From Streptacidiphilus melanogenes (GTDB taxonomy: Bacteria; Actinomycetota; Actinomycetes; Streptomycetales; Streptomycetaceae), in contig NZ_BBPP01000010.1 of the NCBI RefSeq assembly GCF_000787835.1, positions 143,027-191,645 of the forward strand: a DNA stretch of 48,619 nt, written 5' to 3'. The notes under the pieces were generated by a model. That model ran no database searches, had not been told where the DNA came from, and was given only the letters and a program-made list of their open reading frames with translations. A program made the position numbers and the translations under genes. Each line of letters starts with the position of its first letter. Within the stretch, counting starts at the first letter, position 1. Positions 6,044 to 13,906 of this stretch are shown here, in pieces.

Positions 6044-8107
6044 ATGGCCTCCTCCGTTTCCGGCTCAGCCTGGTACCGCTCGCTCAAGACCGCTACCCGG
6101 TCCGGGCTGACGGTGGAGCGGGCGACGAACCAGCCCCTGGCCGCGCTGCGCGGCGCCCTCGGCGTCGCGATCGCGCTGTTCGGCGCGCTCGCGCTCGGCG
6201 GGCCGGCGATGGCGACGTCCGCCGCGCTCGGCGCGCAGCTCGCCGGGATGGCCACCTTCCAGCGCAGCTACCGTCCGCGCCCCTGGCTGGCGCTGGCGAC
6301 CGCGCTGGCGCTGTCGTTCAGCACCTTCGTCGGCTACGTCGTCTCGCCGTGGCACCTGCTGTTCCTCGCGGTGCTCGCGGTCTGGGCGTTCGCAGCCGGA
6401 ATGGCGTGGGTCGCGGGGCAGACAGCCGGGATCCTGGCGTCGATGGCCGTCACGGTCATGATCGTCGCCGTCACCCTGCCCGCCAGCGTGCCGGAGGCGG
6501 CGCAGCACGCGGGCGTCATCGCGGCAGGGGGCGTCATCCAGGCGCTGCTGGTGGTGCTGTGGCCGGTGGACCGGTGGAGCGCGCACCGCGAGGCCCTCGC
6601 CGAGGCGTGCGGGTCGATGGCCGACTACGCGCGACGGCTGCGGCACGACCCCTTCGCGCCGTTCGACCCCGATCCGCTGATGGCCGCGCGCGAGGCCGCG
6701 ATCGTGACGCCGGGTCAGGCGCGCAGCCGTCCCTCCGAGCTGGCCGGGGTGCGCTCGCTGGTCGAGCGGCTGCGTCCGGCGCTGGCCGCGCTCGCCGATC
6801 CGCGCGTCGGCGCCGCCGAGGAGGGCCGCGAACGCGACCGGGCGCGCGAACTGCTTGCGGCCGCCGCCGAGATCCTGGACGCGGCCGCCCGCTCGATCCG
6901 CAGCGGGGAGGGCGCGCAGGTCCCCGAGCGCGCCTACCGCGCGCTGGCCATCCCCGACGGCGGCCCGGTGCTGCACGGCATCGCCCGGCACACCGCGCTG
7001 CGCCTGATCGGCCTGCTGGCCGAGGTCACCGACGCGCTCGACTCGCCCGTCGACGACGACCAGCCGCGCTACCTGCGCCGCCCCGGCGTCCGCGCCCTGC
7101 TGCCGCTCACCGCGGCCGCGGTACAACGGAACTGGACGCAGCGCTCGCCGGTCATGCGGCACGCGGTACGCGTCGCGGTGGTCGTCACGCTCGCGGAGGG
7201 CCTGGGCATGCTGCTGCCGTTCGGGCACGGCTACTGGGCGGCGATGACGGTCATGATGATCATGCGCCCGGAGTTCTCGCAGACCTACACCCGCGGCGTC
7301 GCCCGGCTCGCGGGCACGGTCGTCGGCGTCGGCCTCGCCTCGGTCGTCATGGTGCTGGCGAAGCCGGCGCCGTGGGTCTGCGGCCTGCTGGCCGTCGTCG
7401 CGGTCGGCTGCGCGTACCTGACCATGCGCGCGGGCTACATGGCGCTCAGCGCGCTGGTCTCGGTCTACGTCGTCTTCCTGCTCTCGATGGACGGGCTCGT
7501 CCTGCGGTACACCGCCGAGGAGCGCGTCGGCATGACGCTGCTCGGCGGGTTCCTCGCCTTCGCCGCGTACGCGCTCTGGCCGACCTGGCAGACGGTGCGG
7601 CTGCCGGATCGCCTCGCCGACTACATCGACGCCGCGGGCCACTACGCCGCGGCCGGCCTGGAGGCCTTCGGGGACCCGTCCGCACACAACCGGCGTGCCC
7701 TTCGCGACGCCCTGCTGGACCATCGCGCGGCCCGGGCCGCGCTCACCGCGACGGAGGCCTCCGCCGAGGCGGAACCCGTCCGCGCGCGGGGCCTGCGCCC
7801 GTCCCAGCTCGCCGACGCCCGCGCGGCGATCTCCGCCATCGGGCGGACCACGATGCTGATCGAGGCCCACGTCCCGACCGCCGAGGGCGACTCCCCCGGC
7901 GCGACCGCCTTCGCGGCGGTCGTCCGGGAGCAACTCGCCCACGCGGCCCAATCCGTCCGCGCGGGCGCACCCGTCGACCTCACCCCGGTCCGGGACGCCT
8001 TCACCACCTGGTCGGAATCCGAGGACGGCACCCCACCGGAGATCATCTACGACGCCTCGATCCTGACGGAGGCCATGACGGGCCTTCAGGACGCCCTGGC
8101 GTCTTAG
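6044..8107 (+). CDS. FUSC family integral membrane protein (aromatic acid/efflux type)
   Basis: This 687-aa protein has two hydrophobic blocks (about residues 30-165 and 380-510). Each has several transmembrane helices and is followed by a charged helical cytoplasmic part, the tandem arrangement of YccS/YhcP/FUSC proteins. The motif GHGYWAAMTVMMIMRPEFSQTY near residue 400 is typical of the second FUSC domain. Characterised relatives include AaeB, the p-hydroxybenzoate efflux subunit, but there is no membrane-fusion partner here and the substrate is unknown. The start ATG at 6044 lies 8 nt after a TAAGCT box, so it may be near-leaderless. It is convergent with the MetRS gene across a repeat-bearing gap. 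Confidence 0.85.
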   Translation: MASSVSGSAWYRSLKTATRSGLTVERATNQPLAALRGALGVAIALFGALALGGPAMATSAALGAQLAGMATFQRSYRPRPWLALATALALSFSTFVGYVVSPWHLLFLAVLAVWAFAAGMAWVAGQTAGILASMAVTVMIVAVTLPASVPEAAQHAGVIAAGGVIQALLVVLWPVDRWSAHREALAEACGSMADYARRLRHDPFAPFDPDPLMAAREAAIVTPGQARSRPSELAGVRSLVERLRPALAALADPRVGAAEEGRERDRARELLAAAAEILDAAARSIRSGEGAQVPERAYRALAIPDGGPVLHGIARHTALRLIGLLAEVTDALDSPVDDDQPRYLRRPGVRALLPLTAAAVQRNWTQRSPVMRHAVRVAVVVTLAEGLGMLLPFGHGYWAAMTVMMIMRPEFSQTYTRGVARLAGTVVGVGLASVVMVLAKPAPWVCGLLAVVAVGCAYLTMRAGYMALSALVSVYVVFLLSMDGLVLRYTAEERVGMTLLGGFLAFAAYALWPTWQTVRLPDRLADYIDAAGHYAAAGLEAFGDPSAHNRRALRDALLDHRAARAALTATEASAEAEPVRARGLRPSQLADARAAISAIGRTTMLIEAHVPTAEGDSPGATAFAAVVREQLAHAAQSVRAGAPVDLTPVRDAFTTWSESEDGTPPEIIYDASILTEAMTGLQDALAS

Positions 8108-9998: not shown

Positions 9999-10060
9999 CA
10001 GGCTCTTCTCCTGCCTCGGTGCGGCTCGGTGCGGGAGGGGCCTGTGGCTCGGACATGCGA

Positions 10061-10082
10061 GAGGCCCCTGGACGGGGGCCTC
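10061..10082 (-). terminator. Attenuator hairpin in the MetRS leader (A:B stem)
   Basis: On the minus strand, GAGGCCCC and GGGGCCUC pair perfectly (8 bp, 6-nt loop), 22 nt after the leader-peptide stop and about 60 nt before the MetRS start. No U-run follows, as is frequent for actinomycete terminators. The 3' arm (10061-10068) could instead pair with AGGCCCCU at 10036-10043. The 5' arm (10075-10082) could instead pair with the GGGGC inside the leader ORF (10110-10114). Alternative pairings of this kind are the mark of attenuators. Confidence 0.65.
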
Positions 10083-10103
10083 GAAGGAACGCGCGCGCGT
10101 CGT

Positions 10104-10154
10104 TCAGCAGCCCCGGTAGGGGCGCATCATTCGACGGGTCGGCGCGGAGATCAT
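10104..10154 (-). CDS. Putative MetRS leader peptide (16 aa, Met-Met)
   Basis: The ORF encodes MISAPTRRMMRPYRGC followed by a stop. A TAACCT -10 box (10161-10166) ends exactly 6 nt before its ATG, so it is probably translated from a leaderless mRNA. There is no Shine-Dalgarno. Codons 9 and 10 are both AUG. Codons 11-15 fold into a perfect GCCCC-UACC-GGGGC hairpin (10110-10123). A ribosome waiting at the Met pair would cover the first arm and leave the second free; a ribosome at the stop would cover the second. With the downstream A:B hairpin this fits ribosome-mediated attenuation sensing charged tRNA-Met. Four Arg codons in the peptide make arginine an alternative signal. I know of no family for this peptide. 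Confidence 0.6.
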   Translation of the reverse strand: MISAPTRRMMRPYRGC

Positions 10155-10160
10155 GGACGC

Positions 10161-10166
10161 AGGTTA
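10161..10166 (-). promoter_or_regulatory. Probable -10 box of the MetRS leader transcript
   Basis: TAACCT on the minus strand fits the actinomycete TANNNT -10 consensus and lies 6 nt before the leader-peptide ATG, the spacing seen at other leaderless starts in this window. No good -35 hexamer is evident. Confidence 0.5.
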
Positions 10167-10260: not shown

Positions 10261-10494
10261 CTACAGGTGGCCGCGGATGAACGCGCCGACCTCGGCGGCC
10301 CAGTGGGCATACTCGCCGCGCATCGCCGCGTCGCCGCCGCAGAGCTTGGCGACCTGCGGGTCGGTGAGCCGGTCCGCGTCGTCGGCGGCCAGCATGGTGG
10401 AAAGTCGTTCCATGGTCGCGGCCAGCCGCTCGGCGTCGTGGTGGCTCAGCATGACCAGCCGCTCGGTGCGGCCGATGGTGGTGGAACCGGGCAT
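10261..10494 (-). CDS. Small conserved-looking protein of unknown function
   Basis: This is a 77-aa, mostly helical, soluble protein with no recognisable domain, cysteine pair or membrane segment. The ATG at 10494 was chosen over a start 9 codons further upstream because GGGAGG sits 5 nt before it. It lies about 100 nt upstream of the MetRS leader promoter on the same strand, and could form a small operon with it by read-through. I do not recognise it. Confidence 0.6.
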   Translation of the reverse strand: MPGSTTIGRTERLVMLSHHDAERLAATMERLSTMLAADDADRLTDPQVAKLCGGDAAMRGEYAHWAAEVGAFIRGHL

Positions 10495-10638
10495 GAGTGC
10501 CTCCCGGGATCGCTTTCGCACGCCTCGAATCGTTCCCCACCCACGGTAGATCCGCTCGCGCGGATCCGCTCGACAGGCTCACTGTGCTCCTGGCGGGCCA
10601 GGACGGGCTGACCTCCCCTGCTGCTCGAGGTGCAGCTC

Positions 10639-10690: not shown

Positions 10691-12340
10691 TCAGCGGACG
10701 ACGTTGATGAAGCTCATCATCCCGTTGTCCTCGTGGGCCGCGATGTGGCAGTGGAACATGTAGCGGCCCGGGAAGTCCTCGAACGCGATCCGGATCACCA
10801 CCACGCCCGGCTTGCCGTTCTGCTCGTACGGCACCGGGATGATGTCCTGCCGGTTCGTGTAGGGCTGCGGCACCCCGTTGACCGACATCACCTGGAAGTC
10901 CGAGGTGTGCAGGTGGAAGGGGTGGATCTCACCGGAGGTGTTGTAGATGGTCCACTCCTCCACCGTGCCCAGCCTGGCCGGGGTGGCGAAGACGGAACCG
11001 TCGCTCATCATGAACTGCTTGCCGTTGATGAAGAAGCTGTCGCCGTCCGCGCTCTCGGACAGGACGAGCTTGCGCTTCTGGGCGATCTTCGCGCCGGCCA
11101 GGTCGGGCGCGGCGGTCGGGATGCGGCCGGAGACGGCCGGCAGCCGGCCCGTCGTCGCCCCCCGCACGTCCATCCGGAGCAGCTGGGTGTTCGGGTAGTC
11201 GTCGCCCTGCGGGCCGTTGGAGTAGGCGAGCGTGCGCAGCCAGGCGCCGCCCGGCTCGGATCCGGCGGTCACCAGCACGTCGTAGCGCTTGCCCGGCGGC
11301 AGCAGCAGCTCGGAGGCCGTGCGCACCTTGGCGACGGGCGCCCCGTCCTCACCGACCACGGTGAACCGGTACCCGTCCAGCTGGAGCCGGTAGAAGATGT
11401 CCGCGCCGGCGTTGGTGAGCCGCCACAGCTGGGTCTCGTTCGGCCGCATCGACAGCACCGGGCGCAGTTGGCCGTTGACCAGGCGTACGGTCGGCGCGCC
11501 GGAGTCGATCGAGGTGGTGCCGGTGTTCTGCACGATCGAGCCGTCCGCCGCGATCTGCGCGTCCTTGAACACCAGCGTGTGCGCGGTGATGTGACGCAGC
11601 TTCGGCGGCAGCAGGGTGCGGTCGTCGCCGACGATCAGCGCGCCCGACAGGCCCGACGAGATCTGGTTCTCCACGTCGCCGGGAACGAACGCGGCCGGAG
11701 AGCCGCTCATCCCGCCCATGTCGCCGCCCATCGGCCCGGACATGTCGTCGTCGATGTCGTCGGCGACCATCGCGCCGGGCTTGGGGCAGGTCGTGCCCAT
11801 CGCGTGGCTGTGGTACCAGAAGGTGCCCTGCGGGTGGTTCTTCGGGATCGCCAGCCGGTACGTCAGCGACTGGCCGGGCGCGACGCACAGGAAGGGGTCG
11901 TCGGAGACGCCGGTGGGCGCCACGTGCAGTCCGTGGAAGTGCAGGTTGGTGGCGACGGTGAGGTGGTTGACCAGCCGGATCGTCACCGCCGAGCCGGGCG
12001 CGACCCGGACGGTCGGCGCGACGAAGCTGCCGTTGTAGGACTGGCCCCAGACCTTGCGCCCGGAGAGGTCGAAGCGCGTGCGGTGCGCGTCGAGGGTGAT
12101 CGTGATCTGCTTCGTGGCCGAGGTGTCGGCGTCGGCCGGATCTCTGAAGGGACGGCCGGAGACCATCCCCTTCTCCTGTGCCGCCGTCGACGGCGGCTTC
12201 GGCGCGGACGAGGCCAGCGCCTGTCCCCCGAAGACCGCCCCCGCCAGGACCGCGGCCGCGGTCAGCCCCTGGACGAGGCGCCGGGTCCGCCGCGGTGTTC
12301 TGGCCGCCGGCCCCGCATTGCCGGTCGAACGCCCATTCAT
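10691..12340 (-). CDS. Multicopper oxidase (CueO/CotA/laccase type)
   Basis: This is a 549-aa exported protein. The N-terminal RR...GLTAAAVLAGAVFGG signal could be Tat- or Sec-type. All four copper-ligand blocks are present: HFHG (about 134-137), WYHSH (175-179), HPFHLH near 450, and MFHCHIAAHEDNGMM near the C-terminus. The last has the type-1 Cys and an axial Met. A Met/Asp-rich insert (DDDMSGPMGGDMGGM, about 197-211) resembles the Met-rich copper-handling segments of copper oxidases. Such enzymes oxidise Cu(I), metals or phenolics with oxygen. ATG 12340 was preferred over TTG 12352 because a G-rich ribosome site lies 4 nt before it. A terminator follows closely. Confidence 0.93.
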   Translation of the reverse strand: MNGRSTGNAGPAARTPRRTRRLVQGLTAAAVLAGAVFGGQALASSAPKPPSTAAQEKGMVSGRPFRDPADADTSATKQITITLDAHRTRFDLSGRKVWGQSYNGSFVAPTVRVAPGSAVTIRLVNHLTVATNLHFHGLHVAPTGVSDDPFLCVAPGQSLTYRLAIPKNHPQGTFWYHSHAMGTTCPKPGAMVADDIDDDMSGPMGGDMGGMSGSPAAFVPGDVENQISSGLSGALIVGDDRTLLPPKLRHITAHTLVFKDAQIAADGSIVQNTGTTSIDSGAPTVRLVNGQLRPVLSMRPNETQLWRLTNAGADIFYRLQLDGYRFTVVGEDGAPVAKVRTASELLLPPGKRYDVLVTAGSEPGGAWLRTLAYSNGPQGDDYPNTQLLRMDVRGATTGRLPAVSGRIPTAAPDLAGAKIAQKRKLVLSESADGDSFFINGKQFMMSDGSVFATPARLGTVEEWTIYNTSGEIHPFHLHTSDFQVMSVNGVPQPYTNRQDIIPVPYEQNGKPGVVVIRIAFEDFPGRYMFHCHIAAHEDNGMMSFINVVR

Positions 12341-12562
12341 CAAGCCCCCCAATGGAATTGGAATCCGGGCAGCCCGAAGAAGACCCCCCGATTCAGAACA
12401 AACTGAGAGGAAGCATGGCGATTGACGGCCTCACAGGCAAGACTCAGCAATTCCCGAGACGTATCTCACGTCGTCATCGCCGGGCCCGGCCGCTACCTCA
12501 TGCGGAGGATGGACCGTCACCGACCCCTCTTCAGGCGCGTTCTCGCCTTCTAGGCTGGCTGC

Positions 12563-13906
12563 GTGGCAGACCAGACCCCCTCCCCCGACCGGATCCGCCC
12601 GCTGTGGAGCGCCAGGCGATCGCGCTACCGCGGCCTCGTAGGTCTGCTGCTGACCCAGGCGTTGTCATTGACCGGCACCCGCGTCTCCGCCGTCGCGCTG
12701 CCGTGGCTGGTGCTGACCACCACCGGCAGCACCGCCCTCACCGGCCTGACCGCGTTCTGCGAGCTCGGCCCGTACGTGCTGGCCAAGGCGGCGGCGGGCC
12801 CGGCCATCGACCGGATCGGGCCGCGCCGGATCAGCCTGCTCGGCGATCTGGTCAGCGCGACGGCGGTGCTGGCCGTGCCGATCGCCCACGCGGCGGGCGC
12901 GCTGCCGATCTGGCTGCTGCTGGTCCTCGTCGCCGTCATCGGCTCGGTGCGCGGGCCGGGCGACGCGGCCAAGGTGGCGATGACGCCGGACGCCGCCGAC
13001 GACGCGCGGGTGCCGCTGGAACGCGTCACCGGCCTGTCCGGCGCGGCCGAGCGGCTGGCCATCACCGCCGGCCCGGCGCTCGGCGCGGCCGCCGTGGCCG
13101 GGTTCGGCGCAGCGACGGCGCTGGTCTTCAACGCCGCCACCTTCCTGCTGAGCGGTGCGGCCACGGCCCTGGCCGCACCGCAGCGCCGGGTGCAGGAGGC
13201 GGCGGCCGAGGAGGACGCTGGCTACTGGGAGCGGCTCGGCAAGGGCTTCGCCTTCCTGCGCGGGAACCGGCTGTTGGCGACGGCGGTGGGGCTGACCGTG
13301 GCCACCAATTTCCTGGACGCCGCGTGGTCGGCGGTGCTGATCCCCGTCTGGGTGCACCGGCACGGGCTCGGGGTGGGCGCGGTCGGCGCGGTCTTCTCGG
13401 TGATGAGCGCGGCCTCGGCGGCGGCGGGGCTGGTCGCCGCATGGCTCGGCGAACGGCTGCCGCGCCGCGTCACCTTCCTGGCCGGGTTCGTCGTGGCGGG
13501 CGCGCCGCGCTTCCTCGTCCTCGCGCTCGGCGCGCCGCTCGGCGCGGTGCTCGCCGTCAGCGCGGTCTCGGGCTTCGCCGCAGGCTTCCTCAATCCGATC
13601 CTGGCGGCCGCGGTCTACGAGCGGATCCCGCGCGAGCTGGTCGGCCGCGTCATCTCGGTGGCGGACGCGGTCTCCTGGGCGGGCGTCCCGCTCGGCGGCC
13701 TGATCGCCGGAGCCGCCCTCGGCGCGGTCGCGCTGGGCCCGGTCGCCGCGACGGCCGGCCTGCTGTACTGCGCCGTCACGACGCTCACGGGCCTGCGCCC
13801 GGAGTGGCGCGAACTGGACGCCGAACCGGCCGCCCGCACCGACTCCCACCCGAGCCGCGCCCCGTCCCACCGCCCCCTGCCGGGCGCGTCCCCGGCCAGC
13901 AGCTGA
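12563..13906 (+). CDS. MFS transporter (probable drug/small-molecule exporter)
   Basis: This 447-aa protein has about 12 hydrophobic segments in two halves joined by a charged loop near residue 210-225, and a polar tail. The pattern fits the MFS_3/enterobactin-exporter-like group of major facilitator proteins. The first-half loop AIDRIGPRRISLLGD is the degenerate motif A. Substrate is unknown. GTG 12563 lies exactly 6 nt after TAGGCT (12551-12556), so the transcript is probably leaderless. The gene is followed by an ArsR-family regulator with an operator palindrome, suggesting local control, though the palindrome lies after, not before, this gene. Confidence 0.88.
   Translation: MADQTPSPDRIRPLWSARRSRYRGLVGLLLTQALSLTGTRVSAVALPWLVLTTTGSTALTGLTAFCELGPYVLAKAAAGPAIDRIGPRRISLLGDLVSATAVLAVPIAHAAGALPIWLLLVLVAVIGSVRGPGDAAKVAMTPDAADDARVPLERVTGLSGAAERLAITAGPALGAAAVAGFGAATALVFNAATFLLSGAATALAAPQRRVQEAAAEEDAGYWERLGKGFAFLRGNRLLATAVGLTVATNFLDAAWSAVLIPVWVHRHGLGVGAVGAVFSVMSAASAAAGLVAAWLGERLPRRVTFLAGFVVAGAPRFLVLALGAPLGAVLAVSAVSGFAAGFLNPILAAAVYERIPRELVGRVISVADAVSWAGVPLGGLIAGAALGAVALGPVAATAGLLYCAVTTLTGLRPEWRELDAEPAARTDSHPSRAPSHRPLPGASPASS

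Follow-up and report, generated by a model that had tools for sequence, protein, structure and literature searches.

An auxiliary, antibiotic-resistant tryptophanyl-tRNA synthetase (TrpRS) of Streptomyces is reportedly under ribosome-mediated transcriptional attenuation, going by the title of a 2010 report by Vecchione and Sello. Taken by title only, it is the system closest in logic to the locus described here, with an auxiliary synthetase under attenuation, and it differs in that tryptophan, not methionine, is concerned. Attenuators of trpS and leuS have been predicted in Streptomyces, for trpS2 in one genome and for leuS in two (Seliverstov et al. 2005, PMC1262725). These resemble the present locus in having a leader peptide with cognate codons, followed by antiterminator and terminator hairpins, before an aminoacyl-tRNA synthetase gene of Actinobacteria; they differ in that Trp and Leu rather than Met would be sensed. 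For methionine operons, the accessible part of that paper finds no conserved RNA structure in the upstream regions. For S. lividans, the accessible part of another paper (PMC8079986) describes metL, a leaderless leader with Met codons before metNIQ, and also lists leaders of leuS, trpS, alaS and thrS; a leader of methionyl-tRNA synthetase (MetRS) is absent among its eight leaders. Although metL shares leaderless initiation and Met codons with the MetRS leader, it precedes a methionine importer, is 29 aa long and has no Met-Met. In mycobacteria, leaderless polycysteine short ORFs regulate downstream translation (Canestrari et al. 2020, as covered in the accessible part of a review, PMC9031893). 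They are likewise leaderless and repeat the codon for the amino acid that is sensed, but that amino acid is Cys and the target genes are others; the likeness is one of ORF type. The trpL of Sinorhizobium meliloti is also leaderless, and the accessible part of its source has no mention of methionyl (PMC10117765). Our literature search found no MetRS with a leader peptide or attenuation; subscription papers, such as a 2010 survey of aminoacyl-tRNA attenuation, could contain a case.

We analysed a stretch of 48,619 nucleotides from Streptacidiphilus melanogenes, referred to as the window. The initial annotation had proposed a methionine-sensing ribosomal attenuator before a MetRS gene in this stretch. 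We consider it likely, with a probability of about 0.87, that the leader works by ribosome-mediated attenuation, sensing charged elongator tRNA-Met and governing an auxiliary MetRS. This reading of the initial annotation was supported by the conservation of Met codons, of the −10 spacing and of alternative pairings, and by the association with an auxiliary MetRS. The parts of the locus are as follows.

10166-10161, minus strand: −10-like box TAACCT, six bases before the leader ATG; the TAnnnT spacing is kept in relatives
10154-10104, minus strand: leader ORF MISAPTRRMMRPYRGC, 16 codons plus stop TGA (10106-10104), ATG at 10154; conserved in relatives
10130-10125, minus strand: control codons AUG AUG (the Met pair); Met-Met or single Met in relatives
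10123-10119, minus strand: seg0, GCCCC; partner seg1
10114-10110, minus strand: seg1, GGGGC; partner seg0 or A
10082-10075, minus strand: A, GAGGCCCC; partner seg1 or B
10068-10061, minus strand: B, GGGGCCTC; partner A (terminator-like hairpin) or C
10043-10036, minus strand: core of C, AGGCCCCT, as initially annotated
10034-10044, minus strand: longer form of C, CAGGCCCCTCC, backed by the swap test and window fold; partner B or the MetRS Shine-Dalgarno (SD) region
10011-10008 and 10003-9999, minus strand: MetRS SD GGAG and the segment GCCTG, with C as their partner in the predicted fold
9998-8493, minus strand: auxiliary MetRS, 501 aa; TIGR00398 at 423.5 bits (cut-off 336), PF09334

When the sequence was re-read, the positions first assigned to the box, ORF, Met pair, seg0, seg1, A, B and C all proved exact. 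No Rfam model, T-box and SAM riboswitch included, matched the window at its gathering score, and a T-box or SAM riboswitch was rejected for want of such a match. At E values up to 5, RsmY and Atu_C3 alone appeared, far under gathering and on the opposite strand. Directly upstream of the leader lies an ORF of 86 aa (10261-10521, minus strand) with a weak match, below cut-off, to the TY-Chap C-terminal domain; a similar ORF is found upstream at other Streptacidiphilus loci.

The gene controlled in the proposed model does encode a MetRS, as first annotated, but it is not the sole one. Because the same genome holds another MetRS, 42% identical to the window enzyme, we regard the latter as an auxiliary or spare copy. 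A second synthetase beside the housekeeping one is a feature expected of auxiliary drug-resistance synthetases, and two MetRS are present here. A housekeeping MetRS as the target of the leader was rejected, given the two MetRS of this genome and the lack of a leader match at presumed housekeeping loci. Among the matches listed, the nearest named relative of the enzyme is that of Streptacidiphilus neutrinimicus (94% identical). Neighbouring genes in the window encode a FUSC-like membrane protein (6044-8107, plus strand), a multicopper oxidase (10691-12352, minus strand) and an MFS transporter (12563-13906, plus strand), and none of the three shows a sign of an operon with MetRS.

We scanned species genomes with a profile built from 12 auxiliary enzymes and read the loci of the best 80 of at least 549 confirmed matches, which were 58-94% identical. 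Among these best 80, a short ORF with an in-frame Met-Met was found within 450 nt upstream in 69, a count independent of the leader picker described below. Another 10 possessed a single Met at the control site within the same architecture, as judged by eye, so that 79 of the 80 named relatives carry a Met leader; the one remaining locus, L086 from Saccharomonospora, has no recognisable leader. Among the hosts are Streptacidiphilus, Streptomyces, Kitasatospora, Actinacidiphila, Kribbella, Actinomadura, Micromonospora, Actinoplanes, Planobispora, Saccharothrix, Nocardia and several MAGs. Retention of the small ORF and its Met codons in orthologues, on which the original proposal depended, was thus observed, also in 32/32 loci of a class sample (see below). 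The presence of an internal Met in 116/116 peptides is no evidence, because the peptides were chosen for it. The residue preceding Met-Met varies among the 70 distinct peptides (R in 22, V in 17, E in 10, A in 8, and others). Arg codons beside Met had been counted as a weak point of the proposal; Arg is indeed present, but it is not the constant feature because the preceding residue varies, and sensing of Arg was rejected for this reason. Outside the Met pair the peptides differ, and the conserved Pro-Arg and Arg-Gly after the pair are coded by the RNA segments CCCCG and CGGGGC.

Next, we considered how the leader starts, using a set of 84 leaders from which L086, having no leader, was left out. 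TAnnnT ends 6-7 nt ahead of the leader start in 80/84, compared with 0.5% (0.005) of background positions; this count is slightly favoured because the picker, which took ORFs with an internal Met, rewarded TA near −12 with a small bonus and used a hand rule for L066 and L068. An SD-like 4-mer precedes the leader start in 0/84 and the MetRS start in 81/82. Where an ATG or GTG with a TAnnnT box occurs within 70 nt before the control Met, it stands in the frame of that Met in 81/81 cases. In S. lividans, according to the accessible part of its source, TAnnnT serves as −10 and 17% of transcripts are leaderless (PMC8079986). The transcript of the present locus looks to begin at the leader AUG and is accordingly predicted to be leaderless.

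In the proposed mechanism, transcription would begin at the leader AUG, and a ribosome stalled at either control AUG would cover seg0 and free seg1. Once A is transcribed, seg1 would take it, A:B would be blocked and MetRS would be made. With ample Met-tRNA, or with the leader untranslated, seg1 would be masked or bound to seg0, A:B would form and MetRS would remain low. A shortage of Met-tRNA would in this way raise MetRS expression, with A:B acting as a terminator, by freeing C to bury the MetRS ribosome-binding site (RBS), or in both ways. The distance from the first control ATG to the GGGG of seg1 is 16-17 nt in 77/84 leaders. In 76/84 the leader stop is no more than 27 nt from the control codon, from where a terminating ribosome would, by its usual footprint, cover or nearly cover seg1. 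In the other 8/84 the stop lies 33-39 nt past the control codon and a terminating ribosome would be off seg1; seg0:seg1 must therefore re-form behind it. The original idea that a ribosome at the stop covers seg1 thus applies, covered or nearly so, to the 76 leaders and fails for these 8.

The link between leader and enzyme was also examined in a class sample of 296 evenly drawn genomes, with auxiliary MetRS counted at E <= 1e-135. The auxiliary enzyme was present in 32 genomes; a Met leader was found in 32/32 and Met-Met in 27/32. Of 28 newly read loci, 27 passed a rule requiring the −10 box, and L155 has the ORF without a box; the other four of the 32 are L001 and L012, which were already known, and L128 and L135. 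A covariance model, R1, gave 12 matches in the 296 genomes, 12/12 upstream of an auxiliary MetRS. Eleven belong to the 32 genomes; the twelfth (genome G191, locus L129) is not among them because its enzyme matches in two pieces in different frames. At this locus the R1 leader stands before a two-frame auxiliary MetRS, a frameshift or sequencing error. R1, built on one scaffold and used with strict filters, failed to detect 21 of the 32. A core-motif pattern run against 121 genomes of the family gave 11 matches, each just upstream of an auxiliary MetRS, and the reversed control pattern gave 0 in the same genomes. No R1 match below E 0.1 was obtained at 15 MetRS loci of 40-44% identity presumed to be housekeeping (L002 and L019-L032, with 159 nt upstream in the case of L020). 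The same holds for four auxiliary-like sister enzymes of 52-55% identity (L015-L018), which are without leader; in L016-L018 the gene begins at the stop of an upstream ORF, in an operon-like arrangement. A count of ORFs of 8-35 codons with TAnnnT 6-7 nt upstream, made on both strands of 79 relative loci and the window (1,229,404 bases), gave 90. Internal Met-Met occurred in 68 of these, and 68/68 were MetRS leaders: 67 at the chosen start, and one at another possible start of the leader of L064.

Leaders on other RNA scaffolds were found as well. Genus g55 (family f20) has, at 12 loci (L136-L144 and L146-L148), Met-rich leaders such as MSTARVTAEAASPRMMLMSMPSGLFRAS on a scaffold of their own; they include MMHM, MMLMSM and MMMRM and start with GTG or ATG. 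Plasmid records yielded 11 matches, 2 from Actinomycetes and 9 from Rhizobiaceae (48-53% identity). Both Actinomycete plasmid loci (L166, L172) have a Met-Met leader. Seven of the nine Rhizobiaceae plasmid loci were read (H5 and H11 were left out), and six of the seven (L164, L165 and L167-L170) carry a Met-Met-Met leader, e.g. MNRSLANATMMMPRS. The seventh, L171, showed no Met leader; its match is short of the first 85 residues. In 4/6 of the Rhizobiaceae leaders a second hairpin is followed by at least 5 T. We built a midpoint-rooted tree of 61 enzymes: 40 leader-bearing Actinomycete enzymes, 6 from Rhizobiaceae, 5 leaderless and 10 of 40-44% identity. Leader-bearing enzymes of both phyla formed one group (97/93), with L086 inside it and the leaderless L015-L018 beside it. 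The simplest reading of this tree would be that the leader was gained once, lost once and transferred together with the enzyme.

These comparisons bear on what the leader may sense. Leader peptides sensing antibiotics or a general slowing of translation are known (erm, in the accessible part of PMC2965389), and every leader contains Met anyway, which makes a stall there putative. A leader that senses a drug or general slowing, or serves re-initiation, rather than responding to the Met-tRNA level, is nevertheless very unlikely in our view: the peptide varies outside the Met codons, as arrest peptides do not; the controlled gene encodes the very enzyme charging tRNA-Met; and two scaffolds, those of g55 and Rhizobiaceae, are richer in Met.

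We then turned to the pairings. The alignment A2 and the pairing tests comprised 82 leaders, leaving out L079, where the stem rule found no A:B, and L083, whose MetRS match is far downstream. Pairing was found in 87% of cells for seg0:seg1, 92% for seg1:A, 90% for A:B, 85% for B:C and 71% for C:SD. The A:B and seg1:A pairings of the initial annotation are thus conserved, and mutually exclusive helices sited for a choice by the stall are present, given also the spacing of the control codon to seg1. As G and C runs pair easily, control helices slid by one to three columns were still paired in 29-73% of cells, which would speak for a chance G+C-rich ORF with hairpins of no function. We rejected such an origin as scarcely credible in view of the conservation in two phyla, the −10 spacing, and the frame, motif, ORF and genome controls. 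Cumulatively, comparison of the loci indicates conservation of the following: 1) Met codons; 2) −10 spacing; 3) alternative pairings; and 4) the link to an auxiliary MetRS.

Covariation gave a mixed picture. The state with seg0:seg1 and A:B had 15 cells with double changes, against 4.7 +/- 1.9 in shuffles (0 of 500). The alternative state with seg1:A and B:C showed no excess over shuffles (336 of 500 by covariation score, 319 of 500 by cells paired). C:SD had 14 double-change cells against 7.4 (19 of 500), with no excess in covariation score (406 of 500). RNAalifold on A2 predicted 8 pairs, 0 with a double change, as there is little variation in the cores; having at least two partners each, the core segments would be kept from varying.

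A swap test, which needs no alignment, compared the segments of each locus with segments swapped between loci; relatives were unthinned, so kinship remains in this test, as it does in the shuffles. Own segments paired better than swapped ones for A:B (−21.7 vs −20.7 kcal/mol), B:C (−16.7 vs −16.0 kcal/mol) and C:SD (−16.2 vs −14.2 kcal/mol), with 0 of 2000 in each case. The figure was 148 of 2000 for seg0:seg1 and 1435 of 2000 for seg1:A, which is not locus-specific; six control pairings gave 321 to 2000 of 2000. Examples are GGUCC with GGACC in a Streptomyces group and CAGGC with GCCUG in the window, and in L076 of Saccharothrix C is GGAACCCCC, with B UGGGGGU and SD GGUUCC. That B:C and C:SD are locus-specific goes beyond the initial annotation; mainly because of this we add translational control to the model, and translation of MetRS may be controlled too.

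If attenuation acted on transcription only, A:B would be a U-poor intrinsic terminator and the hairpin of C with the SD would be idle. This is a serious possibility, if a minority one. The 9 nt after A:B have a mean T content of 3.41, vs 1.32 inside genes, with at least 4 T in 40/82, and T-runs occur in the four Rhizobiaceae leaders mentioned above. A missing U-run had been named as a weak point of the proposal; it is indeed absent after A:B in the window leader, and these T-enriched tails and T-runs ease the objection. An idle C, however, would not fit the locus specificity of B:C and C:SD. C, and so B:C and C:SD, also comes too late to affect termination at A:B because RNA polymerase is already past the end of A:B. 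In Streptomyces loci such as L041 and L046, the minimum free energy fold places A:B within a predicted stem that is longer and has its 3' arm beyond B, on the downstream side, unlike a simple terminator.

Folding calculations were used to see whether the switch appears. In the window, the stretch from seg0 to B folds into seg0:seg1 plus A:B (z −2.69, 4 of 200 shuffles equal or better); without seg0, A:B still forms, but the stretch does not beat its shuffles (z −0.65, 55 of 200 shuffles). In the window fold, A:B is accompanied by a hairpin in which C binds GGAG, GCCUG and the start codon (z −2.35, 3 of 200), and the fold burying the SD had z values of −2.16 and −2.35. Folding figures with enforced states cover 80 of the 82 loci. 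At equilibrium, a ribosome placed at the leader stop gave A:B a probability of 0.96, and one placed at the first control Met gave 0.92; SD access was 0.24 at the stop and 0.25 at the stall. Folding the leader under both ribosome positions, a check suggested with the initial annotation, thus gave no plain thermodynamic switch. Holding seg1:A had a median cost of 7.6 kcal/mol and left SD access at 0.25 (up in 43/80 loci, p 0.55). With a shuffled C region SD access at the stop was 0.31, so burial of the SD is somewhat stronger with the real C. In staged folding with seg1:A held, B:C before the SD exists reached a probability of 0.86, vs 0.06 at the stop. With both helices held, at a median cost of 10 kcal/mol relative to the minimum, the SD was unpaired at 0.34 vs 0.24, rising by more than 0.1 in 38/80 loci and falling in 8/80. 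Attenuators depend on co-transcriptional kinetics. As equilibrium folding gives no switch and folding in order of synthesis gives it partly, the mechanism would rest on such kinetics, and the modelled translational branch is plausible, although the energies support it weakly.

Translational attenuation only, with a non-terminating A:B and B taking C at the stall to open the MetRS RBS, strikes us as unlikely. It would account for the locus-specific C:SD and B:C, for the early B:C in staged folding and for the window fold of A:B plus C:SD. On the other hand, the gain in SD access is small and absent at equilibrium. Moreover, B:C was no better than shuffles in 12 g55 loci, 2 f19 loci and 12 Micromonosporaceae-like loci and beat them in 6/6 Rhizobiaceae loci, in a comparison where A:B was set by a simple stem search and misplaced in several loci (e.g. 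L137-L139, L170). We lean towards both modes of control in Actinomycetes and termination in Rhizobiaceae.

A wider proposal is tentative, and we would put the odds against it. The stall would be relayed to the RBS via five exclusive pairings (seg0:seg1, seg1:A, A:B, B:C and C:SD), with control of both transcription and translation; the cassette would occur in two phyla and on plasmids, and its spread would point to unknown natural MetRS inhibitors that induce the spare enzyme.

As far as sequence comparison can tell, the Met leader of the auxiliary MetRS appears to be real and widespread, occurring in many soil bacteria of two phyla. With it, methionine would join the amino acids for which leader-peptide attenuation of a synthetase gene is predicted, here in Actinomycetes and in Rhizobiaceae. 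What sets methionine apart is that it is also the first residue of the leader peptide, and telling a shortage of elongator Met-tRNA from one of initiator Met-tRNA becomes testable. For annotation, the rule would be a leaderless short ORF with Met-Met before a second MetRS gene. A spare MetRS with an induction switch of its own suggests that formation of Met-tRNA is at times blocked in these bacteria, by agents or conditions that they encounter, and the switch offers a concrete route to search for them.
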